Shown here in pieces: positions 2,567 through 24,191 of a stretch of DNA of 41,370 nucleotides. The translations under genes were made by a program, and so were the position numbers. Location of the stretch: NCBI GenBank assembly GCA_903911085.1, contig CAIWCC010000200.1:1-41370 (forward strand), in the 5' to 3' direction. Source of the DNA: an uncultured Bacteroidales bacterium (GTDB lineage Bacteria; Bacteroidota; Bacteroidia; Bacteroidales; Paludibacteraceae). The notes below the pieces were generated by a model. The model was not told the origin of the DNA. It saw nothing but the letters and a program-made list of their open reading frames with translations, and made no database searches. Position 1 is the stretch's first letter; each line of letters begins with the position of its first letter.

Positions 2567-2944
2567 TCACACAATAGATTTAATTTTTGATCCTCTGCCA
2601 ACAACTAAATCAATAGTAAAATTTTGTGACATTTCAATTCCATCTTCTTTTAAAGCCTCTTGAAATTTTCTCATACTTTCGTCATTATCTATAAATGCAA
2701 TTTGTTCTTTCATATAAGCTAAAACATCTGTCAGCTCAATTAATTTCTGTTCATCTTCATATTCACATGCAAGCAAAATGCTTGCTGTATTAAGTGAGTT
2801 TTCTTGAAATGAGATTTTAAAATCAATTCCTTCTATTATGTCAATATAGGTATAAATAACTTTACGGTTTTCTGTAATTGGTTTTGATAATTTAATTTCT
2901 AAATTTGGGAATAAATCATTAATAAGGGTGTTCATTTTTTCCAT
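2567..2944 (-). CDS. Hypothetical protein, 125 residues
   Basis: A small acidic protein with no signal peptide or membrane segment. It shows alternating strands (EIKLSKPI, KVIYTYIDII, DFKISFQENS, SILLACEY) followed by a helix with DVLAYMKEQIAFIDNDESMRKFQEAL, and ends VVGRGSKIKSIV. I do not recognise the family. It lies between the HEPN-like gene (94 bases upstream) and the winged-helix gene (110 bases downstream), same strand. A second in-frame Met lies three codons after the first. Confidence 0.5.
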   Translation of the reverse strand: MEKMNTLINDLFPNLEIKLSKPITENRKVIYTYIDIIEGIDFKISFQENSLNTASILLACEYEDEQKLIELTDVLAYMKEQIAFIDNDESMRKFQEALKEDGIEMSQNFTIDLVVGRGSKIKSIV

Positions 2945-3038
2945 TTTGTTTTCGCTTTATGTGATTTGATTAATTTTACAGATAACGTGTCACTTAGAAT
3001 TACATATTAATAACATCGGGTATTTTTTGCTTAATCAA

Positions 3039-3578
3039 TTATATAGTTTTAGCTGCAATGTTATTACAAAATTCGACTAGTAATTCATTGTTGCATAGCT
3101 CATTATTTTTCATTTTGGTGAATTTTTCTTCTTTTTTGACAGAACGTAAAATATGAATATTATTTCTAAACTCATATAACTTTAATATTTTCTCACCTAT
3201 GTTTGAAGTTAGTATTTCCAATTCAATAGCTTTTGTTATTTTGTCTTTGAATCTGATTTTTCGCTTCTTCTTTTTTGCCTCTTTATGAATTTCTTTTAAA
3301 CTTTCGTTGAAATAACTCTCAAATATATAGTCAATTATAGCTTCATAAATTGATGCAAAGTGTAAAATAACAATTTCATTAAGAGGGTGAGCATCTGAAT
3401 AATTAATATTCAATTCTTTGATAATGTTTTTAATAAAAACTGCTTCTTTATATGATTTTTCTAATGCGTTTCTTAGTTTAGTTTCTTCAATAAAATTGAA
3501 CAAATCCCCAGTATATAAAAGTTTACAACCTTTGATTCTTTCTTCAATTATTTTATTGTCATTTACCTTTTTTGTCAT
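3039..3578 (-). CDS. HEPN-like alpha-helical protein
   Basis: This 179-residue, lysine-rich, all-helical protein has the helix IVILHFASIYEAIIDYIFESYF followed by a basic linker (KEAKKKKRKIRFKDK) and LYEFRNNIHILR near residues 134-145. The FRNNIHI segment resembles the RN..H motif seen in HEPN-fold proteins (usually R-x4-6-H; here R-x3-H, a variant seen in RNxIH forms). HEPN domains are frequent RNases or toxin/defence parts. It starts 53 bases after the kinase stop and may be in the same transcript. The family assignment rests on a short motif and helical pattern only, and RNase activity is not shown. Confidence 0.5.
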   Translation of the reverse strand: MTKKVNDNKIIEERIKGCKLLYTGDLFNFIEETKLRNALEKSYKEAVFIKNIIKELNINYSDAHPLNEIVILHFASIYEAIIDYIFESYFNESLKEIHKEAKKKKRKIRFKDKITKAIELEILTSNIGEKILKLYEFRNNIHILRSVKKEEKFTKMKNNELCNNELLVEFCNNIAAKTI

Positions 3579-3631: not shown

Positions 3632-5518
3632 TTAATCCATAATGCAACGAACAGAGTAGCCACTACTCATAAAACTGATGTAATTACTCACTTTGCTATT
3701 ATTATAGTTTAAACAATAACCCCATGCAGTGTCTGCATCGTTCTTGGTTGCATTCCACAAATAACCGTTGCAACCAATATTGCTGAACTTACCATAACTA
3801 TGACGGAAGCCGGCTGGAAGAAATTTGAAGCCAGATGAGTTGTTTGCTCCTTTATTGGGGTTTTGCCAGTGGCTTGTTCCTGCTTCCTTCAATTTTCCAC
3901 CAGCCGATTCTTCTCCGCTTAAATAGTTTACTAATATTTCCCATTCCTGATATGTTGGAATATGCCAACCTATTGGTGATATATCTCTATAGTCAGATAC
4001 TGCATACCAGTTATAAAGTTTTCCATACTTTCTTCCGTTTGCAGCATCATTATTAAAAACACAAAATGCGCCAGTTTTGAGTTTGTCCCATTGATCATTT
4101 TTAGTAACTTCTGGTATTGCATCTCCATTTCGATAATGAGTTACTTTTAGATTTTCAGCCATCCAAACTTGATTGCCAATCTGAACCGTTTTATAAACAT
4201 TGCCATCAATGTCAGTTACAGTTGAGTAGTTTTTTTTATTTACTGTAACAGCAGTTTCAGTATTTAAAACACTTTGTTCTTGATTTTTACTCACTGAATT
4301 TGAGGTTACATTAGGTTCATTAGTAGTAACTGACGGCATCATGACACCATCATTTATTGAGATTACTTGTTCGTTTACAGCAGATTGCTGTGAATTTCCA
4401 ACAGATTCATCAGAATTATTTAATTGAAAAACAAAGAATAATATAGCCGCAATTACTGCCACACCAATAAAGATATTTCTCACCAAATGACTTTTAGACT
4501 CATCAACTTCAACCTGTGTCAATCTTGGCTTAGGTTGAGAACTTTCTGTCCGTGTAGAATTATGGTTTGTTGCGGTGCGAGGTGCTTCAGTAGTTGCCGT
4601 AGAAGTAACAGTGTTGTTTCTGCTTGTATTTTCAGATTTGTGATTTTCAATGGGCACTTCTACTTTTCCACTCACCATTTCCAAACAACTTCCAGCACCA
4701 CTTATTCTTTTATCCACATCCACCACCAAACATTGCTTCACCAAGTTGCGCCAGTCGGCAGGAATTTGTGTTAATATGACGGTTATATCACCTGCGGTAA
4801 TTTGCTTAAATAATTCTATCCGTCCTGCTTCGCTGGTAACGGCCAATGCGCCAGAGTTAAAGGGCAGTTTACCTGTAAACATCCAGCACGTAATCACGCC
4901 AAAGCTCCACAGGTCGGTATTTTTGCGTATGGTACTCCCCAAAAGCTGCTCTGGCGAAGCAAAAGACAATGTTCCTGCACCTGCTAGTGAATTGGTAAAT
5001 ACAGAACTCTTGTTCACATCCAGTTTTTTGCTGATGCCAAAGTCGGTAATTTTGGGTATGTATTCTCCTTTTCTGTTCAAGGATATCAGGATATTCTGTG
5101 GCTTTAGGTCGCGGTGAATAATGCCGTGGCTGTGCAGAAACACAATGCCTTCCAGTATTTGTTTAAGTAGATTATCTTTCTGTTCGTAAGTCAGTTGCTT
5201 GTCGGTGAGCAATTGTTGCAAGTTGCCTTGCTCGTAATATTGCAGCACGCCAAAATCGTATTCTCCAGCAAAAGTGGAAAAAGTGTAGCATACATCGTAA
5301 TGTGCAATGTTGGGATGTGTAGGCAATTTGCTAATCACTTCCACCTCTTTGCGCAAGCGCACTTCTTCTAAATGTGGTTTTACTTCCGCCATTTTTATGG
5401 CTACATAATGGTCGAGATGCGTGTCGTAAGCTTTATAAACCTTGCCAAATCCACCTTCGCCCAAGCAGTCGGTGTTGGGGTTATAGTGGTAGCGCTTGTG
5501 AAATTCTTCTTGTGTCAT
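3632..5518 (-). CDS. Transmembrane Ser/Thr protein kinase with C-terminal FISUMP domain
   Basis: A 628-residue Hanks-type kinase. The N-terminal kinase domain (about 14-285) has glycine loop LGEGGFGKVY (19-28), Lys42, HRDLKPQN (135-142), DFG (159-161) and SPE (188-190), so it looks catalytically complete. A Thr/Ser-rich linker leads to one transmembrane helix (about 347-366). A further linker leads to a FISUMP domain (TIGR02145-type, about 434-628) with VTDIDGNVYKTVQIGNQVWMAENL, GRKYGKLYNWYAV, GWHIPT and a terminal SVRCI. In this topology the kinase faces the cytoplasm and FISUMP the periplasm, like PASTA-type sensor kinases but with a different outer domain. It starts 7 bases after the coiled-coil gene and is part of the PP2C-FHA operon. 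Confidence 0.9.
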   Translation of the reverse strand: MTQEEFHKRYHYNPNTDCLGEGGFGKVYKAYDTHLDHYVAIKMAEVKPHLEEVRLRKEVEVISKLPTHPNIAHYDVCYTFSTFAGEYDFGVLQYYEQGNLQQLLTDKQLTYEQKDNLLKQILEGIVFLHSHGIIHRDLKPQNILISLNRKGEYIPKITDFGISKKLDVNKSSVFTNSLAGAGTLSFASPEQLLGSTIRKNTDLWSFGVITCWMFTGKLPFNSGALAVTSEAGRIELFKQITAGDITVILTQIPADWRNLVKQCLVVDVDKRISGAGSCLEMVSGKVEVPIENHKSENTSRNNTVTSTATTEAPRTATNHNSTRTESSQPKPRLTQVEVDESKSHLVRNIFIGVAVIAAILFFVFQLNNSDESVGNSQQSAVNEQVISINDGVMMPSVTTNEPNVTSNSVSKNQEQSVLNTETAVTVNKKNYSTVTDIDGNVYKTVQIGNQVWMAENLKVTHYRNGDAIPEVTKNDQWDKLKTGAFCVFNNDAANGRKYGKLYNWYAVSDYRDISPIGWHIPTYQEWEILVNYLSGEESAGGKLKEAGTSHWQNPNKGANNSSGFKFLPAGFRHSYGKFSNIGCNGYLWNATKNDADTAWGYCLNYNNSKVSNYISFMSSGYSVRCIMD

Positions 5519-5525
5519 AATACTG

Positions 5526-5834
5526 CTATTTTAAATTCCGAAGTTCGGATTTTGCCTCTTTAGTCAATTCAACAATTTTTGCTTCAATCTTATTCTTATC
5601 ATTCATTCTATTAAATAGATATTTGCATTCCTCTCTGAATTCTGTGGAATTTAGTATTTCAGTAGACACCAAGTCATTGTACAAAACATTATACCATTTT
5701 TTTTTAAATCGTCGAATCTGATTTTCTTTAATGATTGTATCTAATGTTTCAACTTCTTCAAGTATGAGTCCTAATTTATCAAGTGATACATTAATAATCT
5801 CTTGATATTTCCTTTCAAATTCTTCATTCTTCAT
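5526..5834 (-). CDS. Small coiled-coil protein of the kinase operon
   Basis: A 102-residue charged, helical protein without signal peptide or membrane segment. Long heptad-like helices (EEFERKYQEIINVSLDKLGLILEEVETLDTIIKEN and KIEAKIVELTKEAKSELRNLK) flank a basic patch RRFKKKWYN. It is packed between the FHA-protease gene (11-base gap) and the kinase gene (7-base gap), so it is translated with them. A role as adaptor or kinase substrate is a guess from position. No family recognised. Confidence 0.6.
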   Translation of the reverse strand: MKNEEFERKYQEIINVSLDKLGLILEEVETLDTIIKENQIRRFKKKWYNVLYNDLVSTEILNSTEFREECKYLFNRMNDKNKIEAKIVELTKEAKSELRNLK

Positions 5835-5845
5835 ATTTAGTGTAT

Positions 5846-7219
5846 TTAATATCTATCAAATCCTCTTCCAACAATACTCACGGCAAAATTCAAATCAGCA
5901 GCATCCAATCCACCGGAAGTAATACCAATTACCTCACCTCGCATATTGAAAAGAGGACCACCACTGCTTCCATGGGTAATTTGAGTAGTGGTTTGTATCA
6001 ATGTCAAATCACTTTCGGTTCGTAATGCTGATACAATTCCTTTAGAAAGTGTTTGCTTTAAACCTTCGGGTGCGCCAATTGCAAAAACATCTTCACCTAC
6101 TCGTGGCAAAGAAGAAGCAATATTTAGGTACGGAAAAGTAGTACCATTACCCGCTACTTTAAAAACAATATAATCATTCTCATCGCTACTTGCTAAAACT
6201 GATTCAACTTTGAATGTACCATTTTCTGTTTTAATTGATTCTAATCCTCTGCCTGTACCTTTAAAAACGTGGTAATTACTAATACCCACTCCAGAATAAG
6301 ATATAAAAAATCCACTTCCTTGACTATTATTTGTTCCGTCGCTTGTATAAATTATAAATACAGCATCTTTATTCCGTTCGTATAAAGTTGAAATGTCAAT
6401 CTTTACGATAGTTTGAATGTCAGTATTCGGTTGCATTCTAGCATCTGATTGAACAGATACAACAACAGAATCTAATTGTGCTGTTTGCGTTTTTAATTGA
6501 TTTTTACTTGGTTTGTTGAATTTGGAATATGTGAAATAAATCATCCCTGCAAAGATTGCAGCAGAAACAAGATAACTCCAGATTTTAGTGCTATTTTGTG
6601 TTGTAGCAGAATAATTACTTCTATATTCGTTCGGTGGATTTAGCACATGAGGAGCAGCTTTAGGAACTGACACGTTTGGTATTCTATTCCAGTCCAACTC
6701 ATAGGAATTCGACAAGCTAATAGAATCAGTTGTAGAAACAGGAAAATCAACTTTTGATTTGATTTTCACTCCATTTACGTATATTCCATTGGTGCTTTGG
6801 TCGTAGATAAAGTATTTTCCATCACGTTTAAGTTTCAAAATGGCATGATGGCGACTTACATGATTGTCTGGATCTGAAATAACTATTCGATTGTCCGACT
6901 CTGTCCCAATGGTATAACTCACCTCTTCACCGTTTTCAATTACTGTTGCATCGTGCTTAGCCACAGGAATATCTACTAATGACCAGTTCAATACAAAATG
7001 AGGTCCAAATCGAACTTCGTCCCCTTTTTTCACCGCCACTTCAATACCTTTATTGGCTTTTACACCATTTATGTATGTGCCGTTGGTGCTGTTGTCGTTT
7101 AGGGTAATATTGCCATTGTCGTACACTTTTAGCACAGCATGATATCCGCTTACGGTTCTAGAACTGTCATCTAAAATAATATCATTATCAGGATTTCTTC
7201 CAATTTTGATTGTTTTCAT
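5846..7219 (-). CDS. Double-FHA transmembrane trypsin-like serine protease
   Basis: This 457-residue protein contains two FHA domains. The first (about 2-80) has GRNPDND, SGYH and NSTNGTYING; the second (about 103-178) has VSRHH and QSTNGIYVNG. FHA domains bind phosphothreonine. A transmembrane helix follows (about 213-231), then an S1C/trypsin-like domain (about 280-457) with His317 (SNYHV), Asp349 (ENDYIVFKV) and Ser419 (GSSGGP), so the triad is present. The FHA part should be cytoplasmic and the protease periplasmic. FHA1 has Gly where the usual SRxH arginine sits; FHA2 is canonical. The start overlaps the PP2C gene end by 32 bases. It probably reads phosphorylation by the neighbouring kinase. 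Confidence 0.88.
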   Translation of the reverse strand: MKTIKIGRNPDNDIILDDSSRTVSGYHAVLKVYDNGNITLNDNSTNGTYINGVKANKGIEVAVKKGDEVRFGPHFVLNWSLVDIPVAKHDATVIENGEEVSYTIGTESDNRIVISDPDNHVSRHHAILKLKRDGKYFIYDQSTNGIYVNGVKIKSKVDFPVSTTDSISLSNSYELDWNRIPNVSVPKAAPHVLNPPNEYRSNYSATTQNSTKIWSYLVSAAIFAGMIYFTYSKFNKPSKNQLKTQTAQLDSVVVSVQSDARMQPNTDIQTIVKIDISTLYERNKDAVFIIYTSDGTNNSQGSGFFISYSGVGISNYHVFKGTGRGLESIKTENGTFKVESVLASSDENDYIVFKVAGNGTTFPYLNIASSLPRVGEDVFAIGAPEGLKQTLSKGIVSALRTESDLTLIQTTTQITHGSSGGPLFNMRGEVIGITSGGLDAADLNFAVSIVGRGFDRY

Positions 7220-8195
7220 TTTTTGATGGGTGTGATTGATTTGAAGAATCGGCTGTTTGTTGTTTTTCTTTATGTATGTGCTTGATAATCATTTTCTTTT
7301 CTATTTTTTTAACTACAGGTTTCTTTTGCATTACAAAACATAGATCCACAACCATAGAACCCAAAAGCAATATTAACAACAAATAAATCAATCGTTTACT
7401 TCGTGATGTTGGTATTTTTTTTGTTGAACCCGATTGTTTCACTTCCGAATTTTGAATAATAGAGCTGGATTCTATTTCAAACAAAGCAGCAGTTAGATTG
7501 TCGTGCCGTCCACCGTTTTCAAATCCAATCGCATCAATCTTATCTACTAATTGAGTGATAATTGTTTCAATATCTGATTTCTGACTAACCATTTCCACTA
7601 ATTCATTTTCAGGTACAGCCCCCCAAATACCATCCGTACACAACAGAAAGCGGTCTCCTTTTTGATACGATAAATTATCTGTAATTTCAATATCAACAGT
7701 TGCACGAATACCTAACCCACGAGTAATGATATTTGATTTTTCGGACAGACGGGCTTGTTCTTCGTTTATTAATCCTGCTTTTACTAATTCGAAAACGTGT
7801 GAGTGGTCAAAAGTACGATGAAGTATTTTTCCTTCCTTGAGTTGATATATTCTACTATCGCCTACATGAGCACAAATGGCTTTGTCAGGTGTAAGCAACA
7901 AAGCCACCACCGTAGTGCCCATTCCTTTTCCTAATATGAAGGATTGGCTTTCTTTCCAAATAAAAGAGTTCGCATTTTCAATAGCTTTATTTAATGCTTC
8001 AACTGGTTTTTTATTGCTGCTTATTAAAAGACTATTTAGAATTATTTGCACTGCTTTTTCAGCTGCATGTCTTCCGCCATTATGACCACCCATACCATCG
8101 CATACAACGATTAATTCACCGTAGGGAGTTTTTGCTGTGCCGTAAAAGTCTTGGTTTTCAGTGCGACCGCCAGTTTTGGATTGGATATATATCAT
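7188..8195 (-). CDS. PP2C-type Ser/Thr phosphatase with C-terminal membrane anchor
   Basis: A 335-residue PP2C/PPM phosphatase. The metal-binding motifs are present: RTENQD (11-16), VCDGMGGHNGG (31-41), HVGDSRIY, LCTDGIWG and GGRHDNL. Length of the catalytic domain is normal (about 240). A single transmembrane helix (about 270-288) and a basic/polar tail follow, so the enzyme faces the cytoplasm at the inner membrane. It should reverse phosphorylation by the kinase encoded two genes on. It heads the operon PP2C, FHA-protease, coiled coil, kinase. Upstream are a TAATTTTG -7 box and a LytTR-like tandem operator. Confidence 0.92.
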   Translation of the reverse strand: MIYIQSKTGGRTENQDFYGTAKTPYGELIVVCDGMGGHNGGRHAAEKAVQIILNSLLISSNKKPVEALNKAIENANSFIWKESQSFILGKGMGTTVVALLLTPDKAICAHVGDSRIYQLKEGKILHRTFDHSHVFELVKAGLINEEQARLSEKSNIITRGLGIRATVDIEITDNLSYQKGDRFLLCTDGIWGAVPENELVEMVSQKSDIETIITQLVDKIDAIGFENGGRHDNLTAALFEIESSSIIQNSEVKQSGSTKKIPTSRSKRLIYLLLILLLGSMVVDLCFVMQKKPVVKKIEKKMIIKHIHKEKQQTADSSNQSHPSKNENNQNWKKS

Positions 8196-8221
8196 TATGG
8201 ATATTTATTAATATTACATTG

Positions 8222-8229
8222 CAAAATTA
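8222..8229 (-). promoter_or_regulatory. Predicted -7 box of the PP2C-FHA-kinase operon
   Basis: The minus strand reads TAATTTTG, a match to TAnnTTTG, about 27 bases before the PP2C start codon. It is 40 bases from the nearer TGTATGA repeat, the same distance as in front of the lipoprotein gene. Confidence 0.55.
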
Positions 8230-8268
8230 AAAGAATATAACAATCAATTAAAATCTTTTTAGTGTTAA

Positions 8269-8296
8269 TGTATGAAAAGTAGGCTTTATTGTATGA
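8269..8296 (-). promoter_or_regulatory. LytTR-like tandem operator upstream of PP2C operon
   Basis: Direct TGTATGA copies (plus sense) lie at 8269-8275 and 8290-8296, period 21 bp. The distal copy sits in TTATTGTATGAAATG, matching 14 of 15 bases of the copy at 1233-1247. It lies right between the LytTR-FHA regulator gene and the operon it presumably controls, in activator position upstream of the -7 box. Confidence 0.62.
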
Positions 8297-8305
8297 AATG
8301 GATTA

Positions 8306-9022
8306 TCAGAAAATTTCTGTTTTATCCAAATCCGCAAATTCCAATTGAAAATCAGTATTTCCTGCTTTAATCTTGACTCCGATATTTATTGGTTGAGGCG
8401 TTTCCGGTGAAATTCGCTCTAAAGAAAGGAATGTGCCGTTTGCACTATTTAGGTCATAAAGCTTAAACTCATATTTTCTCTCTGAAATTTGACAAGATAC
8501 TTCAATATCAAAATGCAACCGGCTAATTTTACTATCGCCATTATCAATAGGATGTTCACATTCAATGGAGTTCGTTTTTCGTCCAAAACGGTTATGCCCT
8601 AAATGAAGTTGATAAATCTTGCGGGTTTGTAAATCACGTAATTGAACTTCGTTTAAAATTTTTATCGGTGTTCCCTCTTGCGTTTCTTTTAGTTTCTTCA
8701 GTGCTTCTTTGGATACCTCTAACTCAAAGAACTTATCGCTATTCGGTACTGATAGAATTAACTTTTTCCGTAGTGTTTGAATGGAATATATAAAAGCTTT
8801 GCGAATAATTAAATCTCTTCCCACTCTTTCAAACATATCTGATTGTAAGCCTAATTGTTCATCAAGTTTCAATTGCACTTTTGACAGATTCATGGTCAAC
8901 AGTTGCACTTTCCTGGAAGTAAGCATCATTTTAGAATAATTACCATCTGCCTGAAAGTAAACAATATCTTCAGGGTTTATCTGAATAAGTTCATCACGGG
9001 ATTTAAAAATAAGATTGTTCAT
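8306..9022 (-). CDS. LytTR DNA-binding protein fused to an FHA domain
   Basis: This 238-residue protein starts with a LytTR domain (about 1-115): IVYFQADGNYSKMML, LTMNLSKVQLKL, and FERVGRDLIIRKAFIYSI are typical. It has no response-regulator receiver domain. Instead the C-terminal half (about 120-238) is an FHA domain: HLGHNRFGRKTNSIECEHP, ISRLHFDIEV and LYDLNSANGTFLS, with the R, SRxH and NG residues kept. It would therefore sense phosphothreonine, most likely placed by the nearby kinase, and bind tandem sites such as those at 8269-8296 and 1216-1243. It is transcribed just ahead of the PP2C operon, with a possible own promoter at 9038-9045. Confidence 0.88.
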   Translation of the reverse strand: MNNLIFKSRDELIQINPEDIVYFQADGNYSKMMLTSRKVQLLTMNLSKVQLKLDEQLGLQSDMFERVGRDLIIRKAFIYSIQTLRKKLILSVPNSDKFFELEVSKEALKKLKETQEGTPIKILNEVQLRDLQTRKIYQLHLGHNRFGRKTNSIECEHPIDNGDSKISRLHFDIEVSCQISERKYEFKLYDLNSANGTFLSLERISPETPQPINIGVKIKAGNTDFQLEFADLDKTEIF

Positions 9023-9045: not shown

Positions 9046-9460
9046 ATTTCAATGCCTAAAGAAAATAAAATCCAGAAGTTATAACAAATTCTTAATCTCC
9101 AAATAGTATTTCTTTTTAAGTTTTTAATAAATTCTTACGTGCTAGTGTTTTTTAATAAATTTAAGTGTCAAAGATAAACACTATTATTTACATAAACAAA
9201 ATTTTACTAATTTAATTTCTAATTTATCAAACGGACTTTTTATTTGGTCAAATCCTTTGCCAGTAATGTGTTTATGTTTCGGTTGTTTTACTATTTTCAT
9301 GCCCTAACAGATTTTATATCAGTATCCACTTCAAGTAAATGAGTAACCAAAGACTAAAAAATGTAGCATCAGATTGATTCTTATCCCGAAGTCAGATTTT
9401 ATGTGTATGTCTGGCTTATAAGTTGGATATTTTTGCGCTTATTAATATTGCAATTATGGT

Positions 9461-9668
9461 GTTCCTTCGTACCATATAGGGGGCATGTTCGTATCTCCTT
9501 ATCTATTATTATATGGATATCCCATAGATATCCCATATATATCCCTACCTTGTCCCATATTATTTATGCAATGGAATATCATAGGAATATTGTATTGTTA
9601 TAATTAAATGAGTTATATTTATATGGATAATATGGTACGGTCATGCTGCGAACATGCAGCGAAGGAAC
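9461..9668. repeat. MITE-like element with matching inverted ends
   Basis: The two ends share three inverted segments. GTTCCTTCG (9461-9469) matches CGAAGGAAC (9660-9668). GCATGTTCG (9483-9491) matches CGAACATGC (9649-9657). TACCATAT (9470-9477) matches ATATGGTA (9630-9637), but in a different order on the right side. The middle is AT-rich with repeated ATATCCCATA words. No coding capacity and no clear target duplication. Confidence 0.45.
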
Positions 9669-9775
9669 AACAAAAGTGAATTATCAATTATACCATCAGA
9701 AGACATAAACCGATTGCCATTAAATTTTTTTTCGCCAGTTTTTTTATTTATCTAGCCCTTATTCTATATTTTCAT

Positions 9776-12921: not shown

Positions 12922-15804
12922 TCAAAACCGCTGCAAAAACTCACCTAAATTCACTTCTCTATCTATGCCCATTTTTTTGCGAAGTCGATATCGACTCATT
13001 TCTACACTTCTAATGGACATATTCATTAATTGAGCAATGTCTTTAGATGATAAATCCATTTTTAGATATGCACACAGTTTTTTATCGCTAACGGCTAAGT
13101 CGGGGTAACTTTCGGCGAGTCGTTTTAGGTAATTCTCGTACACTAAATCAAAGTTTTCTTCAAAGCGTTTCCAGTTATTATCGTTTCCAATATTTTCTTT
13201 AATACTTCGTTCCATTTTGTTGAGTCGACTAAGTACAGCATCTGCATCATGATTGGCTTTGATTTCGGCAGATACCTTTGATAAATTATCCATGATATCT
13301 TGCAACATTTCATTTTTCCGTATAACATTCATCGTTGAACTCGCCAATTCTTGTGATTTATGTCTTAATTCGTAATGCAACTGCTGATTTTTTAATTCTT
13401 TTATTTCTTTCTTTTTTTCGGTGGTTTCGGCCTCAAATTTCTTTTTCTGTTCATTTATCTCTATTTCTTTTTGAATTTCCATTTCACGCGCACCTTTTTT
13501 TGAACGATTGTTTATCCAAATCATCAATGCAACAAATAATAACAAAATTAGAATTCCATAAGAGATATATGCCATCGTAGTTTCGTACCAAGCTGGGAGT
13601 ACAGTAAAGTAGTAATTACAAATAGCATCTTTTGATTCGAGCAAGTTGCGTGCACGAACTTTAAGAATGTAATTTCCTTTGGGTAGTTGAGTATATTCTT
13701 TTGAGTTGTCGAAAGCGTAATCGGACCATGCTTCATCGTAGTTTTCGAGCATATAACTGTATTGAACAAGCCCTTCGTTGCGGTATTCGGGTGCAATAAG
13801 CTCAAAACGCAAGGAATTATGATTATGTTTAAATGTTTGGTTATTTTGGGAATTGCTGGATTTGTATTCTGTCGGATTAAATGATATTTTATCATTTGTG
13901 AATATTACATTATTCATAAAGACCTTAAATGTATTTTTTGTATCAACTTTTCGTTTTGAGTCAATCCAACTAAAACCATCTTCTGTTCCTATTATCAAAT
14001 TATTATTATCGATGAAGTTAAAATGCTCAAAACCGATAATGATTTTTGGTTGCAAAAGCCTATATGATAGTGAATCAATAATATAAGAACTATTTTGTTG
14101 TTTTTTTGCCAACCCTATAAATTTACCCGAAACACACCATATATCGCCTGTTTTATTTTCGTGCAAACGAATGTAACAAGGTGGTGTGGTAAATAATTTA
14201 TTCCATTTTTCATAAGGTACCATTTTATCCGTTTTACTATTATAGTAATAAAAGCCACGTTCGGACGAAAATACAATTTCGTTGGCAACTCTAAATAAAG
14301 TATTGTTTCGGTTGCTTGGAAATCCTTTTCTAATGTCGTATAAATTTACTTTTGTTATACTATCCATTTTTTCGTTGAAATGGAGGTGAAATATACCTTT
14401 TTGCCAATGACTAAACCACACAGAACCGTCTGGTGCTTCTTCAAACATTGGACTCGATTCTGAGAATTTACCTTTTATAAAATGTGAGAATTGCCACTTT
14501 TTATTGATTTTTTTTAGAATAAATAATCCTTGATATGAACATCCTAAAATTAAATCGGGGTGCTTACTTAGTGATTTGAAAGCCCAGGTACCTTGTATGT
14601 TTTGTAAACGTTCGATGTTATTCGAATTTATTATAAATGCACCTTTATCGCTCCCGCAGAAAAGGGTATTATCAATTTCGGTTAAGTTCCAAACTTGTCC
14701 TTCCATGCCTTTTACGATGTTCAATTGAACTGGTAAAGCGCTGTTTTGTAGAGGATACGAAGTTGTATAAAGTCCTTGATTTGTACCGAAATACAATGTG
14801 TTATTTTTCAGAATAGAAGTGTAACCTGCCCCATAGAGGTTATTTATTCCGAGCACATTTTGAATTGGTGAATTTAGAATCACATAATCAATGCCTTTAT
14901 CTAATCCTAGCCAAAGATTTTCCTGATTATCAAAAGTCATACTTAGCACCGTATTATTTTGTAATCCTGTAAATGTATTTATATATGTTACGTTTTTATC
15001 GGATAAATCAAGTATTGCAATGCCTTTTTGAACGGTGCCAAAAACAAGCTTATTGTTTTTTCTAGCTGCACAAAAAATCTGATTTCCTTTTAAGAAATTA
15101 TCAATGCCAGTGTTGTAGGGAACAAATGTAATTCCATTAAAAAGATATACGCCATCAAAATAGGTTATAAAAAGCGTATTTTCATTGTCCAATGGAAGTA
15201 TGGAACAAACCTTTTTGTTGATAAGAATTTCTGAACCTGGTAATCGCAAAAACTGTTTTCCGTTCAGCATGAAAACTCCACTTTGCTCACTTGAAAAAAA
15301 CAATACATTATTAATATAAGCAGATGCATCAATTTTACTATGAAATGCTATTTTATCAATTTTTGAACCATCGTATTGATAAATGTTTTTTTCGCCTAAG
15401 AAGTATATAGTTTTATATCCGTCGATAATTGAAAATAAAGCATTTGACTCTTGTGTGTTAATGTTCAGTTTTTCGGACAGAGAATGATATATAAATTGAT
15501 TATTTTGTTTTTTGAAGTACCCGAAATCATTGAATGTTGAGGCATATACGCGTTCATCTTTATTGTATAGCAATGATCTTACGCTAGTTCTATTTTTTAT
15601 AGGTACCGTAGTCCATTTTTTTCCATCAAATATCAACAGTCCATTATTATTTGCAAAATACATTGAATTTTCATTGTCTTGAACAATTGACCAATTTTGA
15701 GTTCCTGATTTATAATTTTCTCTTAAGAAATTTCTTACCAAAGGGAAATTGGCATATCCTGACATGTAGAAAATAATAGAAACGAATAACATTTTTTGTC
15801 TCAT
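12922..15804 (-). CDS. SusR-like sensor regulator (Reg_prop / Y_Y_Y / LuxR-type HTH)
   Basis: A 960-residue one-protein glycan sensor. An N-terminal signal segment is followed by a beta-propeller of two-component-regulator (Reg_prop) repeats through about residue 600 (for example NENSMYFANNNGLLIFDGKKW, NQENLWLGLDKGIDYV). A Y_Y_Y domain follows (about 665-740, YSYMLENYDEAWSDYA), then a transmembrane helix (about 746-766), a long coiled coil (about 770-830) and a C-terminal LuxR/GerE-like helix-turn-helix (about 895-955, DLSSKDIAQLMNMSIRSVEMSRYRLRKKM). It has no histidine kinase or receiver, so the signal must cross the membrane directly to the HTH. It is transcribed away from the glucan locus and is the obvious candidate to bind the shared operators at 15891-15909 and 30175-30193. 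Confidence 0.9.
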   Translation of the reverse strand: MRQKMLFVSIIFYMSGYANFPLVRNFLRENYKSGTQNWSIVQDNENSMYFANNNGLLIFDGKKWTTVPIKNRTSVRSLLYNKDERVYASTFNDFGYFKKQNNQFIYHSLSEKLNINTQESNALFSIIDGYKTIYFLGEKNIYQYDGSKIDKIAFHSKIDASAYINNVLFFSSEQSGVFMLNGKQFLRLPGSEILINKKVCSILPLDNENTLFITYFDGVYLFNGITFVPYNTGIDNFLKGNQIFCAARKNNKLVFGTVQKGIAILDLSDKNVTYINTFTGLQNNTVLSMTFDNQENLWLGLDKGIDYVILNSPIQNVLGINNLYGAGYTSILKNNTLYFGTNQGLYTTSYPLQNSALPVQLNIVKGMEGQVWNLTEIDNTLFCGSDKGAFIINSNNIERLQNIQGTWAFKSLSKHPDLILGCSYQGLFILKKINKKWQFSHFIKGKFSESSPMFEEAPDGSVWFSHWQKGIFHLHFNEKMDSITKVNLYDIRKGFPSNRNNTLFRVANEIVFSSERGFYYYNSKTDKMVPYEKWNKLFTTPPCYIRLHENKTGDIWCVSGKFIGLAKKQQNSSYIIDSLSYRLLQPKIIIGFEHFNFIDNNNLIIGTEDGFSWIDSKRKVDTKNTFKVFMNNVIFTNDKISFNPTEYKSSNSQNNQTFKHNHNSLRFELIAPEYRNEGLVQYSYMLENYDEAWSDYAFDNSKEYTQLPKGNYILKVRARNLLESKDAICNYYFTVLPAWYETTMAYISYGILILLLFVALMIWINNRSKKGAREMEIQKEIEINEQKKKFEAETTEKKKEIKELKNQQLHYELRHKSQELASSTMNVIRKNEMLQDIMDNLSKVSAEIKANHDADAVLSRLNKMERSIKENIGNDNNWKRFEENFDLVYENYLKRLAESYPDLAVSDKKLCAYLKMDLSSKDIAQLMNMSIRSVEMSRYRLRKKMGIDREVNLGEFLQRF

Positions 15805-15890
15805 ATTCTTGTGATTTGTAAGTTTTCTATTGATTTTTATTTTTCTAAAAGTTCAATTTTACCACTTTTATTTCAGTTGAAAGTATGGCT

Positions 15891-15909
15891 GAAATATGTT
15901 ATACAACAT
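15891..15909 (+). promoter_or_regulatory. Operator dyad A of the transporter promoter
   Basis: GAAATATGTTATACAACAT contains the dyad ATGTT-N4-AACAT. It matches 18 of 19 bases of the site at 30175-30193. Confidence 0.65.
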
Positions 15910-15991
15910 GATTATAAATATAGCATTAATAATCAGTATAATAAGAGGCTGATAAATGAACTTTTGAGTATCATTAAATAGCTATATGTGT

Positions 15992-16042
15992 ATTTTTGTG
16001 AAGTAAAAAAAAAATCTTTTCATTAATAACTCCCTATATTTG
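15992..16042 (+). promoter_or_regulatory. Box B and -7 element of the transporter promoter
   Basis: Box B ATTTTTGTGAAGTAAA (15992-16007) matches ATTTTTGCGTAGTAAA before the second glucan promoter in 14 of 16 bases. TATATTTG (16035-16042) is the -7 box. The gap from dyad A to box B is 82 bases in both promoters; the gap from box B to the -7 box is 27 and 28. Confidence 0.62.
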
Positions 16043-16260
16043 CAAAGTGGATTTTCCAATTTTTTGAACAGCAACATCATCTTTTAATAATGTTCCTTAT
16101 AATTTTTTTTTGACTGATGACCTCATAATAAAATTGTGTTAAAACAGGTTCACTTTATTTTTATTATTCATTAAATAAAGATGTTTAAGTCCCATAAAAT
16201 TATAATTCAAGTTTAAAATGAAATAAAGCTCTCACTTACAATCTAATAAAACAAATATAT

Positions 16261-17697
16261 ATGAAACAAGAACAACACAAAACAGCCGCCAAAGATTTAG
16301 TGCCATTCGGACAGAAAATTGCTTTTGGTTCAGGTCATTTAGCTAATCAATTATTTCCAGCCGCATTGGGTGTTTTTATGATTGTATTAGTATTATCATT
16401 AAAAATGAATCCAGCTTTGGCAGGCTTATTAGCTGCTTTGCCACGTGTGCTGGATGCAGTATTAGACCCAATAATGGGTTTTGTCTCGGATAATACGGTA
16501 TCTAAATGGGGAAGACGCAAACCATATATTTTCCTTGGAGCCATAATCACTGGTTTTGTATTTATGATTATGTGGCAGTTATATCCCGAAAATAGCGAGA
16601 TGTATAATTTTTTCTATTTTTTATTTACGTCACTATTCTTTTATGTTGGTTATACCATTTTTGCAGCTCCACTTATTGGATTAGGTTACGAAATGACAGC
16701 TGATTACAATGAAAGAACAAGATTAATGGCGATTTCTCAATTTATGGGTCAAATTGCTTGGATGATTGCTCCTTGGTTTTGGGTTTTAATCTACAAAAAA
16801 GAACTTTTTGCAAGTGGTCCCGAAGGTGCACGAAGTTTATCATTATGGGTTGGTGGATTATGTTTAATACTAGGAATTATGCCAGCTTTGTTTTGTAAAG
16901 AAATAGATCAAACTCATTTAACTAACAGAGCCACTCTATCTGCCAAAGAGTTTATAAACAATATGAAAGCTCTATTCAAAAGTATGAAACAAATCATTAC
17001 AAATAAATCGTTTTTAAGACTTTGTGGCTCAACCTTTTTGATATTTAATGGATTTCAAATAATTGCTCAATTTGCTTTCTTTATTATTATTTTCTATTTG
17101 TTCAATGGCGATACCACTGCTGCAGGAACGTGGCCAGCGTGGTTTGGAACAATAAGTGCCGTATGTACTGCATTTCTGGTAATTCCTATTATTACTTTTA
17201 TTTCAACCAAAGTTGGTAAGAAAAATGCATTTGTAATATCAACTGCTATTTCAATAGTAGGATATTCATTAAAATGGTGGGCATTTAGTCCTTCAAATCC
17301 GTGGTTAATGTTTCTGCCGCTCCCATTAATTTCATTCGGAATTGGCGGATTGTTTACACTGATGATGTCAATGACAGCTGATGTGTGCGATTTGGATGAA
17401 TTAGAAAACGGAATGCCCAGAAAAGAAGCAACATTTGGTGCTGTTTACTGGTGGATGGTTAAACTTGGCACTGCTATGGCTTTGCTTCTAAGTGGAATAG
17501 TTCTGAATATGGTTGGATTCGATCAAAATGCAACAGTTCAAACTGTGGATACTCTTACAAAACTAAGATTAGCTGACATTTTAATACCTTCAATTACAGG
17601 TATTCTTGCAATCTTGGTTATGTGGAAATATGATATCACCGAACAAAAATCGAATGAAATACGTAAAACATTAGTTGAACGTAGAGGTGATCTGTAA
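16261..17697 (+). CDS. GPH-family (MFS) sugar:cation symporter
   Basis: A 478-residue inner-membrane transporter with about 12 transmembrane helices. The N-terminal features are those of the glycoside-pentoside-hexuronide:cation symporters (MFS_2): a helix-1 region KIAFGSGHLANQLF, the loop RVLDAVLDPIMGFVSDNTVSKWGRRKPYI, and helix 4-5 sequence GLGYEMTADYNERTRLM. The conserved late loop MSMTADVCDLDELENGMPRKEATFGA is also present. First gene of the glucan operon, 25 bases before GH17. It probably imports short beta-glucan oligosaccharides released in the periplasm for the cytoplasmic GH17 enzymes; the substrate is inferred from neighbours. Confidence 0.9.
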   Translation: MKQEQHKTAAKDLVPFGQKIAFGSGHLANQLFPAALGVFMIVLVLSLKMNPALAGLLAALPRVLDAVLDPIMGFVSDNTVSKWGRRKPYIFLGAIITGFVFMIMWQLYPENSEMYNFFYFLFTSLFFYVGYTIFAAPLIGLGYEMTADYNERTRLMAISQFMGQIAWMIAPWFWVLIYKKELFASGPEGARSLSLWVGGLCLILGIMPALFCKEIDQTHLTNRATLSAKEFINNMKALFKSMKQIITNKSFLRLCGSTFLIFNGFQIIAQFAFFIIIFYLFNGDTTAAGTWPAWFGTISAVCTAFLVIPIITFISTKVGKKNAFVISTAISIVGYSLKWWAFSPSNPWLMFLPLPLISFGIGGLFTLMMSMTADVCDLDELENGMPRKEATFGAVYWWMVKLGTAMALLLSGIVLNMVGFDQNATVQTVDTLTKLRLADILIPSITGILAILVMWKYDITEQKSNEIRKTLVERRGDL

Positions 17698-17722
17698 TAA
17701 TTAACAATAAAAAATAAGAATT

Positions 17723-18619
17723 ATGTCAGTCAGAGAAGGAAAAAGAATGTCATTGGCAGGAATATCAGGAATTGATTATTCTACAAAAACCGTTGAGGAA
17801 TTTAATGATATTTTCAAAAAAGTATTGAATGACGGAATGCATGGTCTATGCTTCAGTGCATACGAAGAAGGACAAATGCCTGGCGATATTCTAACGGAAG
17901 AGCAAATTAGAAGAAGAATGAAAATAATTCAACCATATACAAAATGGGTTCGTTCTTTTTCGTGCATCGAAGGCAACGAGTTAATTCCAAAAATAGCAAA
18001 AGAATTTGGAATTAAAACATTGGTTGGTGCTTGGCTGGGCAAAGATCAAGAAATGAATGAGCAAGAAATAGAAGGGCTCATAAAATTGGCAAATGAAGGT
18101 TATGTAGATATTGCTGCCGTTGGAAACGAGGTTTTATACCGCGAGGATATGACAGAAGAAGAGCTGTTGGACACCATCAACCGTGTCAAGAATGCCATTC
18201 CTAACATTCCAGTTGGGTACGTTGATGCATATTATGAATTTGCGGCTCGCCCTAAAATTACAGAAGCATGTGATGTAATTTTAGCCAATTGTTATCCATT
18301 TTGGGAATGTTGTCACGCCGATTATTCCTTGATGTATATGAAAGAAATGTTTTATCAAGCGGTTCTTGCTGGTAAAGGCGATAAACATGTAATTATTACC
18401 GAAACTGGCTGGCCAAGTCAAGGCGAGGATTATAAAGGAGCTCAACCGTCGCACGAAAATGCGTTAAAATACTTTCTGAATACTCAATTATGGTCAAAGG
18501 AAGAAGGTATCGACATTTTTTACTTTACGTCATTCGACGAATCATGGAAAGTTGGCGTCGAAGGTGATGTAGGTGCTTTTTGGGGAATTTGGGACAAAAA
18601 TGAAAATCTGAAATACTAA
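17723..18619 (+). CDS. Cytoplasmic GH17-family beta-1,3-glucan hydrolase-like protein
   Basis: A 298-residue TIM-barrel of glycoside hydrolase family 17. Acid/base Glu136 lies in AAVGNEVLYR and the nucleophile Glu227 in IITETGWPSQG, both typical of GH17. The barrel begins within the first residues and there is no signal peptide, so the protein should stay in the cytoplasm, unlike most secreted GH17 enzymes. It follows the transporter by 25 bases. It likely trims or rearranges imported beta-1,3-gluco-oligosaccharides; GH17 members can also transglycosylate. A second, diverged GH17 gene ends the locus at 28913-29848. Confidence 0.88.
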   Translation: MSVREGKRMSLAGISGIDYSTKTVEEFNDIFKKVLNDGMHGLCFSAYEEGQMPGDILTEEQIRRRMKIIQPYTKWVRSFSCIEGNELIPKIAKEFGIKTLVGAWLGKDQEMNEQEIEGLIKLANEGYVDIAAVGNEVLYREDMTEEELLDTINRVKNAIPNIPVGYVDAYYEFAARPKITEACDVILANCYPFWECCHADYSLMYMKEMFYQAVLAGKGDKHVIITETGWPSQGEDYKGAQPSHENALKYFLNTQLWSKEEGIDIFYFTSFDESWKVGVEGDVGAFWGIWDKNENLKY

Positions 18620-18711
18620 GTACTTTATTTATTGTTTCAAATACGCAATATCCTGCAAAACAAACTTGTAACGAAAAAACATGATGACTAACCATTAAAA
18701 ATTACAATTAT

Positions 18712-21700
18712 ATGAAAAAATCATTATTAACATTACTATTTTATTTATCTATAACATCTGCGTTTGCTCAGGCAGATAAAGTTTCGGTTGTGGATAACAA
18801 TGAAGGAATGAAGCTATTAGTAAATGGCAACAATTTTATGATAAATGGTATGAATTGGGATTATTTTCCAATTGGCACAAACTTTAATTATAGTTTATGG
18901 CAACAGCCAGATGACTTTATAAAAGGTGCTCTTGACGCTGAGATGTCGATGCTTAAAAACATGGGAGTAAATACCATTCGTGCTTACACTGGCATTCAAC
19001 CAAAATGGATAAAATATATCTACGAAAAATATGGAATTTGGACAATTGTTAATCATTCTTTCGGACGATATGGCTTAACCATTAATGGTAAATGGGTTGT
19101 AAATACCGAGTATTCAGATGCAAGCACTCGTGAATTACTACTGAAAGAGGTTACTAAAATGGTTGAAGAATATAAAAATACGCCTGGATTGTTGGTTTAT
19201 TTATTAGGTAATGAGAATAATTACGGACTTTTTTGGTCAGGTGCCGAAACAGAGAATATTCCTTTAGAGCAAAGAGAATCCACACATCGTGCCAAAGCTT
19301 TGTATAAAATGTTTAATGAAGCAGTTGTGACAATGAAAGCGCTAGATAAATCTCATCCAGTGGCTATTTGCAATGGTGATATGCTTTTCCTTGATATCAT
19401 TTCTAAGGAATGTAAAGATATTGATATTCTAGGCGTTAACTGTTATCGTGGTGCTTCATTTGGTGACGTTTTTCAAAAAGCCAAAGCTTCAATTAACAAA
19501 CCAATTATGTTTACAGAGTTTGGTTCTGATGCTTTTAATACTATTACCAATGACGAAGATCAGCAATCGCAAGCTTATTATTTAATCAATAATTGGAAAG
19601 AAATTTATGAAAATGCTGCTGGTTTAGGCAAAGGAAATAATTGTATCGGTGGTTTTACTTTTCAGTTTAGCGACGGCTGGTGGAAATATGGACAGACTAA
19701 TAATTTAGAAGTTCATGATACTCATGCTTCATGGATAAATGGTGGATATCAAAATGATTATGTACCAGGTGAAAATAATATGAATGAGGAGTGGTATGGA
19801 ATATGTGCCAAAGGTCAAACCAATGAAACTGGTCATTATCAATTATATCCACGTGCAGCATATTATGCTTTACAACAAGTTCATAAGTTAAATCCATATG
19901 CAAAAAATCTAAAAGTTGATTCGCTAAACAAGTATTTTTCAAGTATCCTGATTACAGAAAATCTGTTGAAAGCTAGAGGCGATAAAGCATCATTGTTTAC
20001 TGAAGTGGCTGAAAAAGTACGTATCAGTGGCGTTAGAGCTGAACTAACTACCTTTACCACAGGTGGAAATATGATTACTACGCCCAAAGAAAAAAATACT
20101 GATCCTACAAAATTGACTTATCCAAGTAGGCTTGGTTTCGACCGCATGGAATCGTTTTATGTTGGCGTAGAAGCCAAACCGACTCAAAATGTGCAAGCAA
20201 ATGTTACCTTTAATATACTCGGAAACATTGCCGAAAATCCTATTGATGAGATATTTTATGAAAATCGTGGTGCTGTACGTGATGTAAAAACTACTGACCC
20301 AACAAACAATCTATCGGTTTCAAATAATAGAATTCAAGTTTATCAAGCCGATATTAAATGGGATTCAAAGTGGTTTAATTTGCTGGGCTTTTATCGTACA
20401 GGCCACAATCATTGGGGCTACGACGGCGATTTATTTGGCTTATATCCCGAAACACATTACGGCGCAAACATGGATATTTACAATGGCGAAGCACCATTTG
20501 GCTTTGAAGTTGGAGGAAAAAAATCGTTGAGTGGTTTAATGGTTGCCTTTGGTCCAGAACTTTGGTGGGGTGCCAATCCAGCTGTGTTGGCAAAATACAA
20601 CTACAAATTAGGTCCTTTTAATATTACAGGAATTTATCACGAAGACTTGGATAAAAGAACAGCTTCGGTGAGTTCGTTTGCAATACCAACACCACAAACT
20701 CGCAGAGCTACACTTGGTGTTAAAACAAAATTAGGTGCTGCAGGATTTGAATTTGGAGGCATTTGGGCTGGTTCGAGAAGAATTGGCGATGTTTTCCAAA
20801 TTATTGATGGTACTGCTGGAAATTACACTATTTATCAAGATAAAATAAATTCAACTGACACTTGGGGAGGTAAAGCAAAAATTACATTTTCTGCAGGCCC
20901 AATAAATTGGTATGCACAAGGCGCCATTCAAGGATTGGTGGCTATGGGTGGTGCCGATTATACAACCACATATACTGGCTGGCGATTAAAAGATAGCGGA
21001 AGTGGAAACCAATACAATTTCTTAACAGGACTAACTTATGGTATAGGTGATTTTCAAATTGCTCCAAATTTCTTATGGCAAAAACCAATTGTTGGTCCAG
21101 TACCAGGTGACGCTCCAGCCCCAGGAAGACCTAGAAACATTGTTGACGACCCATTTGCAGTTAGGTCGAACAGACAAACTACTGCTGGTGAACTTTTAAT
21201 TGCTTATGATCCAACACCTGCCACATGGATGTGGGCTTGGGACAATGATGAAATGGAAAATGCCACTTTTGCAATGAGTGCCGATTTTGTTTATCGCCAT
21301 CATCCTACAACTCAAGATGCTTCGATTGGTATGTTGGCAAATCGTACTCGATTCGCATTTTCTGGCTCGCCTGCAGCACGTGATATTTGGGAAGTGAATT
21401 CACGAATTGTAAGTAAAGTGAATCATAATTTTGGTCTAATATCAAATCTTTTTGTTGGAACTGCCGAATCGAATGGTAGCGATCAAAGATTAATTAAACG
21501 TTATGGTGGTGATATTAGATTGATTTACCAAAAAGTAAAACTTATTTCAACAGTAAAAGTAAATGATTGGGGGCCTTATGATTATCATCGTGATTTTAAC
21601 TTGACATATCCATTACAACTAATGGCAGATTTGTCAACCTCTGTTGCAAAACCAAAATGGTTTATTGTACCAGAAACAAGACTCGGATTACGATGCACTT

Positions 21701-21852: not shown

Positions 21853-21874
21853 CGAACCACAAAATATTATACTT

Positions 21875-23269: not shown

Positions 23270-23315
23270 AAAATTGATTAAATACTATGTTACTCATTCA
23301 TAAAAAAATAATGCT

Positions 23316-24191
23316 ATGAATTATACTAAATTTAAAACTAATAGCCATAAATTGGTTTCAGGACTTCTAGGTTCAATCTTTTTAATTTCGCTAATAGGAT
23401 GTAATGAAACAAGCGATATTCAAAAACTTCCACAGCGTAATTATCAACTTGTGTGGAGCGATGAATTTAATGGTTTAGCAAATGTATCACCAGATGCTAC
23501 AAAATGGGTTTTTGAAACTGGTGGTGGCGGTTGGGGAAACGCTGAATATGAGGTTTATACAAATAGTACTGCCAATGTTTCTACCAATGGAAAAGGTAGT
23601 TTAGCCATTACTGCTACCAAAGTACCTACAACACCAAATCCAACTTATTATTCTGGTCGTATTATAACAAAAGGTTTATTTACAAAAACTTACGGACGTT
23701 TCGAAGCACGAATTAAATTGCCTTACGGCCCTGGAATATGGCCAGCTTTCTGGATTCTTGGTGCAAATAAAGACAGTTTGGATGCTAATATGAAAACTAT
23801 TGGCTGGCCTCAATGTGGAGAAATTGACATTATGGAAATGAATGGTTCTAAACCCAATATTATCAACGGAACCGTGCATGGTCCAGGATATTCTGGCGGT
23901 GCTTCCATTACAAAAAGTTTCGGTTTGCTGAATGATAGATATGATACTGACTACCATGTGTTTGCTATTGAATGGGGAAAAGATTATATTGATTTTTTTG
24001 TAGACAACACACTTTATCAGGAGCTTACACCGTCGAGCGTAACTGGCAATTGGGTTTTTAATGATCACCCCTTTTATATTCTGTTAAATCTTGCAGTAGG
24101 TGGTAATTATGTAACTGGTCCAACCGACCAAACTCCGTTTCCACAAACAATGCTAGTGGATTATGTAAGAGTTTATGATGAAGTAAAATAA
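23316..24191 (+). CDS. GH16 endo-beta-1,3-glucanase lipoprotein (laminarinase-like)
   Basis: A 291-residue lipoprotein: signal ending LISLIGC (Cys29), then a GH16 jelly roll. Substrate-cleft motifs are typical for laminarinases: LVWSDEFNG, GGGGWGNAEYEVYT, YGRFEARIKLP, GIWPAFWILG. The catalytic motif EIDIME has nucleophile Glu169, assisting Asp171 and acid/base Glu174, and the bulge Met of the beta-1,3-glucanase type is kept. DYVRVYDE closes the domain. Length is normal for a single-domain enzyme. It probably cuts long beta-1,3-glucan at the cell surface for the other locus proteins. Confidence 0.92.
   Translation: MNYTKFKTNSHKLVSGLLGSIFLISLIGCNETSDIQKLPQRNYQLVWSDEFNGLANVSPDATKWVFETGGGGWGNAEYEVYTNSTANVSTNGKGSLAITATKVPTTPNPTYYSGRIITKGLFTKTYGRFEARIKLPYGPGIWPAFWILGANKDSLDANMKTIGWPQCGEIDIMEMNGSKPNIINGTVHGPGYSGGASITKSFGLLNDRYDTDYHVFAIEWGKDYIDFFVDNTLYQELTPSSVTGNWVFNDHPFYILLNLAVGGNYVTGPTDQTPFPQTMLVDYVRVYDEVK

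Follow-up and report, generated by a model that had tools for sequence, protein, structure and literature searches.

The window analysed here is the whole of contig CAIWCC010000200.1 (41,370 nt; assembly GCA_903911085.1) from an uncultured Bacteroidales bacterium of the Paludibacteraceae. At positions 3632-9022, it carries genes for a transmembrane (TM) Ser/Thr kinase, a PP2C phosphatase, a protease with two FHA domains and a LytTR-FHA regulator. We propose that these genes probably encode a dedicated phospho-threonine circuit, in which kinase, PP2C and FHA readers act on short threonine motifs (tags), with the LytTR regulator and the protease as outputs. Such a circuit is supported because homologues are co-located, the LytTR tree follows the gene neighbourhoods, the genes are spaced as in an operon and the Thr tags are conserved. 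More tentatively, the window may hold the compact version of an undescribed modular transmembrane phospho-threonine system of Bacteroidales. The kinase head would be its constant part and would act, together with FHA readers, on one Thr tag that several partners display. Its sensors (FISUMP, FGE-like, WG repeats, TPR and others) and its outputs (transcription through LytTR, an exported protease that is caspase-fold or trypsin-like, membrane proteins with DUF805) would be exchanged, in a manner loosely reminiscent of eukaryotic receptor-kinase pathways.

Gene content of the cluster

The five open reading frames (ORFs) are all on the minus strand, transcribed in the order LytTR-FHA, PP2C, FHA-protease, 102-aa protein and kinase. 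They are given below with the two tags, the Pfam E-values and other evidence in brackets.

8306..9022, minus strand: LytTR-FHA regulator, 238 aa (LytTR 2.1e-8, FHA 4.9e-9; homologues; AlphaFold2 (AF2) model)
8309..8332, minus strand: C-terminal tail of LytTR-FHA, residues 231-238, with the Thr235 tag D-x-D-K/R-T-E-I (homologue counts; predicted local distance difference test, pLDDT)
7188..8195, minus strand: PP2C phosphatase, 335 aa (PP2C_2 3.3e-17)
5846..7219, minus strand: FHA-FHA-TM-trypsin-like protease, 457 aa (two FHA 1.7e-34, Trypsin_2 1.5e-25)
6926..6961, minus strand: linker between the FHA domains of the protease, residues 87-98, with the Thr92 tag D-A-T-x-I (alignment; pLDDT)
5526..5834, minus strand: 102-aa protein between the protease and kinase genes (ORF; no Pfam family over the cut-off)
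3632..5518, minus strand: transmembrane Ser/Thr kinase with a FISUMP outer domain, 628 aa (Pkinase 2.7e-48, Fib_succ_major/FISUMP 1.7e-45)

An earlier note on this DNA had read a kinase-TM-FISUMP protein, a PP2C-TM protein, an FHA-FHA-TM-trypsin protein and a LytTR-FHA protein as encoded together, and the ORFs, the Pfam matches and the common strand confirm it. It had also spoken of five genes, which we correct to four named genes plus one small ORF, that of 102 aa. The PP2C and FHA-protease genes overlap by 32 bp, the genes after them follow at gaps of 11 and 7 bp, and a space of 110 bp separates PP2C from LytTR-FHA on its upstream side.

In the LytTR-FHA protein (mean pLDDT 84 in the AF2 model), the LytTR domain occupies approximately 8684-8992 and the FHA domain (FHA3) 8363-8590. 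The protease has FHA1 at 7004-7210, FHA2 at 6713-6916 and Trypsin_2 at approximately 5921-6319; its TM segment falls below the hydropathy cut-off used and appears in the AF2 model as helix 213-234 between disordered linkers. A single TM helix of the PP2C (residues 270-288) is close to its C-terminus. The kinase has Pkinase at 4694-5467, a TM segment at residues 345-363 (~4430-4486) and FISUMP at ~3641-4186.

The catalytic motifs of the kinase (VAIK, HRDLKPQN, DFG) and of the PP2C (DGMGG, HVGDSR, CTDG) are intact. The protease has its catalytic residues H317/D349/S419, and the active-site Ser is lost in one of the 22 aligned homologues (P0116). Pocket residues R148, S167, N195 and T197 of FHA3 are invariant across 24 aligned proteins, as are R8, S24, N46 and T48 of FHA1 in the protease alignment. 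All three FHA matches of the source genome (6.25 Mb, 97.9% complete) fall inside the cluster; the genome also has four Pkinase matches (three over the cut-off) and two PP2C_2 matches. Fragments on two other contigs of this genome (L265 4211-4295; L264 4203-4278) match the kinase gene over its initial 76-85 nt alone, with 91-92% identity, as if they were leftovers of further kinases of the same family.

Homologues of the cluster genes share contigs

As a proxy for linkage, equal lengths of the longest listed contig were compared between the LytTR-FHA, FHA-protease and kinase families (91, 32 and 120 rows), the kinases being the best 120 of 5108 and the window's own contig being excluded. LytTR-FHA and FHA-protease shared five lengths. 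LytTR-FHA and the kinases shared 11, one of which (961599) belongs to a LytTR-only protein, and FHA-protease and the kinases shared nine, two of which (5162, 6245) belong to single-FHA proteases. Two contigs were common to the three families. With 83 other trypsin-like homologues as a control, there were 0, 0 and 1 equal lengths, and a control with lengths shifted by 1-200 gave means of 0.2-0.6 and a maximum of 4. Contigs of only 4-19 kb are among the coincidences, which argues for close linkage. In two genomes of one other family (G516 and G349), a kinase gene directly precedes an FHA-FHA-trypsin gene. These results suggest that the cluster genes are no chance assembly, their homologues being co-located well above the controls.

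A wider class of Bacteroidales clusters

We then kept 80 of 226 loci from a profile search of genome contigs with the LytTR-FHA alignment. Most are free-standing Bacteroidales LytTR genes. A part lies in clusters with kinases, PP2C, a zinc-ribbon FHA protein and three further genes: c4, an FHA gene directly downstream of LytTR; c6, a protein with a short N-terminal part ahead of a hydrophobic stretch; and c7, a caspase-fold protein with Peptidase_C14 in the two members scanned and, in most members, a start resembling a signal peptide.

A tree of 83 LytTR domains has a split (100/99) between 21 rows, namely the window, two close relatives and 18 others, and 62 rows that are mostly orphan; the alignment is short, the window branch is long and the program warned of long-branch joins. 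Around the 18 rows we counted a kinase in 15, PP2C in 13, c4 in 17 (16 directly downstream), c6 in 16, caspase in 12 and zinc-ribbon FHA in 15, against a kinase in 6, PP2C in 2, c4 in 1, caspase in 1 and zinc-ribbon FHA in 2 of the 61 other loci. Neither count covers L038 and L039, which are the two relatives grouped with the window, or the locus L118 of viral origin, and one of the 18 loci, L037, was fetched because two matches shared one contig. The window's kinase subfamily is also found inside some of these clusters: kinases of L108, L169, L256 and L261 match its kinase domain at 1e-101, 2e-73, 3e-78 and 5e-75. At L169, genes for kinase-FISUMP proteins adjoin PP2C and FHA, along with a weak match to LytTR (2e-5).

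The window has a LytTR domain of the cluster clade (on a long branch, with the program's warning) next to kinase, PP2C and FHA genes. Its LytTR subfamily, PP2C, FHA and Thr tags are common to the related clusters (L060, L102, L108, L169, L256). Unlike in these, LytTR is fused to FHA and the protease is trypsin-like instead of caspase-fold, and among the window ORFs near the cluster we found no separate c4 FHA, c6, caspase-fold or zinc-ribbon FHA gene. From the co-location and the LytTR clade association, we therefore take the window to be, as far as its sequence tells, a compact variant, one arrangement of a larger Bacteroidales cluster class with exchanged sensors and outputs. Caspase-fold and Thr-tagged c6 proteins are encoded, for example, at L060, L062, L102, L108 and L256, which points to a wider system.

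A threonine tag in flexible segments of the readers

The LytTR-FHA family has 91 listed proteins, of which 84 are full-length (the window's own included). In these 84, T235 is always Thr, with an acidic residue at -2 in 80 and hydrophobic residues at +2 in 82, +3 in 60 and -3 in 62; this conservation is seen despite a pLDDT below 50 for residues 232-238. In the FHA-protease, T92 is at least 90% conserved in the alignment. Among its 27 homologues of at least 430 aa (own included), the linker has the tag pattern with a hydrophobic residue at +2 in 27/27 and an acidic one at -2 in 22/27, although in P0115 and P0116 the pattern picked up a neighbouring Thr. Linker residues 87-98 again have a pLDDT below 50.

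We scored the pattern [DE]-(x)-T-x-[ILVMFY] in the related clusters (discovery set), with shuffled sequences as control. Enrichment was seen in c6 within its N-terminal 80 residues (23 motifs in 16 of 19 proteins; shuffles 6.4, 0/1000 reaching the count) and in the zinc-ribbon-FHA linkers (21 motifs in 15/15 proteins; shuffles 4.3, 0/1000). The pattern was marginal in c4 (20 motifs vs 14.3; 23/300 shuffles reach), and no enrichment was seen in the c6 remainders (17 vs 28.9) or in the other genes of these loci (205 vs 207).

That the pattern had been chosen on the discovery set speaks against relying on these counts, and the tag was therefore tested on loci of other genomes. A first held-out set, 20 loci of the window's own family, was without clusters, and order-level loci of other genomes (20 fetched) were used. 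Here, zinc-ribbon-FHA linkers from loci with a kinase had 13 motifs in 9 of 11 proteins (shuffles 4.0, 0/2000 reaching), whereas those from loci without a kinase had the tag in 0/5. The c6 proteins had 9 motifs in 6 of 9 (shuffles 3.3, 8/2000). Other held-out genes were not enriched, either in the first 80 residues (64 vs 58; 61/300) or as a whole (294 vs 288; 37/100). The held-out zinc-ribbon-FHA and c6 proteins include no exact copy of a discovery protein, and their best matches are 26-52% identical with one exception (67% over 45 residues).

The acidic-x-Thr-x-hydrophobic tag in apparently unstructured reader segments, enriched in partner proteins of related clusters, is the new finding of this analysis. 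It resembles known FHA self-ligands: PMC6733907 gives those of DgcB and OdhI as having glutamate at -2 and hydrophobic residues at -3, +2 and +3. In PMC3953482, Fha of the type VI secretion system (T6SS) binds an N-terminal phospho-threonine (pThr) site, DLPpTVVEI, of the membrane protein TssL.

Exchanged ends of the kinases and FHA proteins

Over their first 280 residues, the 49 closest kinases (P0213-P0261) have a median identity of 79% to the window kinase (range 56-91), against a median of 20% over residues 370-628 (range 0-53; some proteins are short). By hand count, the outer domains among the best 120 kinases are 27 FISUMP (PF09603, own included), 24 FGE-sulfatase (PF03781) and 19 WG repeats (PF14903). 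One row has two of these three, and the remainder have TPR, TonB, OmpA or nothing named. Ten lengths of the longest listed contig recur (twice or more) among these kinases, which suggests several kinases per locus. The double-FHA head, 56-65% identical, is found on five proteins with PF05656 (DUF805) in place of the protease. The conserved kinase heads, the divergent outer parts and the DUF805 variants therefore point to a phospho-core that stays constant, with its inputs and outputs exchanged.

Proposed circuit and points against it

The predicted domains, the catalytic and FHA1/FHA3 pocket residues, the co-location of homologues and the conservation of the tags can be seen in the sequence. 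Phosphorylation, tag-FHA binding, topology, direction of regulation and signal are what we infer in the following scheme. The transmembrane kinase, through an exchangeable outer domain (here FISUMP, which would sense outside the membrane), would answer an envelope or extracellular cue and phosphorylate the acidic-x-Thr-x-hydrophobic tags, T235 in the LytTR-FHA tail and T92 in the linker of the FHA-protease. FHA1 and the FHA domain of LytTR-FHA would bind these tags, in cis or in trans. Binding could alter how LytTR-FHA pairs and how it binds DNA. It could also change the clustering of the membrane protease or its activity, which would be exerted by a catalytic domain facing the periplasm. The effect of the tag would be either dimers (on) or a closed protein (off). 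The membrane PP2C would strip phosphate from the tags. The outputs would thus be LytTR transcription and a periplasmic protease.

If this is true, a Bacteroidales Ser/Thr phospho-relay with a defined tag and readers would couple outside cues to transcription and envelope proteolysis. Some of the related loci come from gut Prevotella, Bacteroides and Parabacteroides. As substrates and binders, the tags and the FHA domains could be tested directly, and the signals could be approached domain by domain through the exchanged outer parts.

Several results weigh against this circuit. Of the 13 other contigs of at least 20 kb in the LytTR list, only four match a kinase among the best 120. At E 1e-30, LytTR-FHA matches 3/358 family genomes, in full length only in its own and in G186, and G188 matches the LytTR part alone. 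G186 (82% complete) has no other FHA match and no PP2C match. The kinase query matches in G186, G188 and G174 only from residue 375 on, which is the FISUMP part, and no further FHA was found in these three genomes. Around weaker matches, 20 further family loci had no kinase, PP2C, c6 or caspase neighbour. As to the proteins themselves, the pocket Arg of FHA2 is replaced by Thr (Ser in one row) in 20/20 aligned homologues having FHA2 (22 aligned), and FHA2 therefore may not bind phosphate. The tag is not enriched in the kinases (107 vs 105 in shuffles) or PP2C (20 vs 34) of the discovery set and is not clearly enriched, only marginal, in the caspases (14 vs 11.3; 66/300 shuffles reach). Among the tags tested, none is conserved in the window's own kinase or PP2C.

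Same-genus relatives have a single gene or remnants instead of the exact five-gene set. In G188, LytTR is present and after it comes a 138-nt piece left over from the beginning of PP2C (75% identity); in G174, 93 nt from the beginning of LytTR survive (81% identity). From this patchy presence and these remnants, the cluster looks to have been gained and lost. The circuit read in the earlier note is thus supported in part, by co-location, LytTR tree, spacing and Thr tags, not as a unique five-gene circuit but as one arrangement of a larger class.

Alternative explanations

GarA and OdhI work by a docking-and-closing logic. With the same parts, a logic of this type, opposite to the one proposed above, could apply here: the FHA domain would dock on the phosphorylated kinase, and phosphorylation of the tail would then close FHA on its own tail and switch the regulator off. 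By sequence and fold, the window FHA domain matches solved FHA proteins that include OdhI and GarA, besides FhaA, EmbR, DgcB and TIFA. Against this reading, OdhI and GarA are not known to have a DNA-binding or protease domain. The window tag also resembles their tails. As described in PMC6733907, a Thr in a flexible tail of GarA, OdhI and DgcB, with an acidic residue at -2 and a hydrophobic one at +2, is read by the protein's own FHA, and the window tail has this pattern. However, their tails are N-terminal, whereas that of LytTR-FHA is C-terminal, and their outputs are enzyme inhibition or c-di-GMP rather than LytTR. In the related clusters the tag is also present on membrane partners (c6) with no detected FHA, and binding in trans is therefore favoured. 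We consider the closing logic unlikely.

Less probable still, and in our view quite improbable, is a role in phage defence or conflict, comparable to KKP, PD-T4-6 or the candidate PDC-M21, with kinase and phosphatase as toxin and antitoxin-like arms. PADLOC matches the kinase to mad6 (6.4e-57) and PD-T4-6 (1.2e-46) and, weakly, the PP2C to PDC-M21C (7.1e-14). Genes of PDC-M21A/B adjoin the cluster, the related clusters have proteases and caspase-fold proteins, and the presence is patchy. However, the kinase matches are to a generic kinase domain, with the kinase of a related locus scoring alike; M21A/B have no kinase, PP2C, FHA or LytTR match in 20/20 other loci; and no phage or plasmid record has the LytTR-FHA fusion. 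The layout of KKP (PfpC-PfkB-PfkA) differs too. According to PMC11341870, two kinase genes of 900-1300 bp come after PP2C in KKP, and these kinases carry CSD and FHA parts. The window likewise has PP2C and kinase side by side with FHA involved, but its one kinase gene measures 1887 bp and encodes TM and FISUMP parts, with no second kinase and no CSD or FHA on the kinase.

That the genes are unrelated and adjoin by chance, with no more than phospho-signalling domains in common, is very unlikely. L038 and L039, relatives of LytTR-FHA, have no kinase or PP2C neighbours, and many contigs are listed for one family only (with the kinases limited to the best 120), but the contig coincidences against the controls, the LytTR clade association, the gene overlap and the LytTR with PP2C-start remnant in G188 speak for linkage.

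That the cluster controls a secretion machine post-translationally, in the manner of the T6SS threonine phosphorylation pathway, is most improbable: kinase, PP2C and FHA protein (PpkA/PppA/Fha) are encoded together there as well, and Fha reads the pThr of a membrane protein at an N-terminal site of TssL (PMC3953482), but the outputs here are a transcription factor and a protease, no secretion genes were recognised in the window, just as the earlier note had it, and the genome has no match to VipB (PF05943, the T6SS sheath), a search whose control matched only Escherichia coli, leaving its sensitivity for the Bacteroidota subtype unproven.

Comparison with other known systems

EmbR of Mycobacterium tuberculosis is regulated by a Ser/Thr kinase. 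Its DNA-binding domain is a different one and is at the other side of the protein, and it is not known to have a LytTR domain or to be in an operon with PP2C and an FHA-protease. Like LytTR-FHA, EmbR (PDB 2fez, 2ff4) is a transcription factor with an FHA domain, which matches ours in sequence and fold; the listed EmbR matches cover the FHA part, and the window has LytTR instead of the EmbR-type DNA-binding domain.

In the TerY-type triad, a vWA protein stands beside PP2C and kinase. No vWA family was found among the ten window proteins scanned with Pfam. The second kinase and PP2C of the source genome lie at L263 5288-14933 (contig C233), with several ORFs reading like TerY-type vWA proteins. 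In the open-access PMC literature, with preprints and most subscription journals outside this scope, we found no paper with the gene composition of the window, in agreement with the earlier note, and a signalling system of this composition is apparently undescribed.

Flanking elements, regulation and mobility

Two features flank the cluster.

1248-2456: PDC-M21A/M21B pair (PADLOC, A 2.2e-49, B 6.4e-63), reading HTH-like and nucleotidyltransferase-like
~9147-9699: dispersed intergenic repeat of ~550 bp, between LytTR-FHA and a divergent RecQ-like ORF

M21A and M21B are adjacent to each other in all 20 loci fetched, from 20 of the 29 other genomes with a match, and in 7 of these 20 an ORF reading like a calcineurin-type phosphoesterase adjoins. 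They were rejected as a part of the system on account of the missing cluster-type genes in those loci; L070 and the window are the only ones among the loci seen to combine M21A/B with cluster-type genes. Two small proteins (125 and 179 aa; 2567-3578), with no family over the cut-off, are encoded directly after the kinase gene.

An 11-bp tandem repeat at 9506-9560 was considered as a LytTR site and rejected, as it lies inside the ~550-bp repeat, which has two further copies in the genome (~81% identical, on contigs C206 and C69). Upstream of LytTR-FHA relatives in four genomes there was no clear shared operator, and promoter-like sites were not in excess (36 vs 38.3 in shuffles). Carriage by a mobile element was also rejected: one phage and two plasmid records match, in each case through the LytTR part alone. 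For the FHA-protease, plasmid matches stay below 80% coverage in all 466 records, and the viral contigs gave one LytTR-only locus. Farther along the window, at 12922-32748, the ORFs read like a glucan-use locus with sensor-regulator, transporter and glycoside hydrolases.

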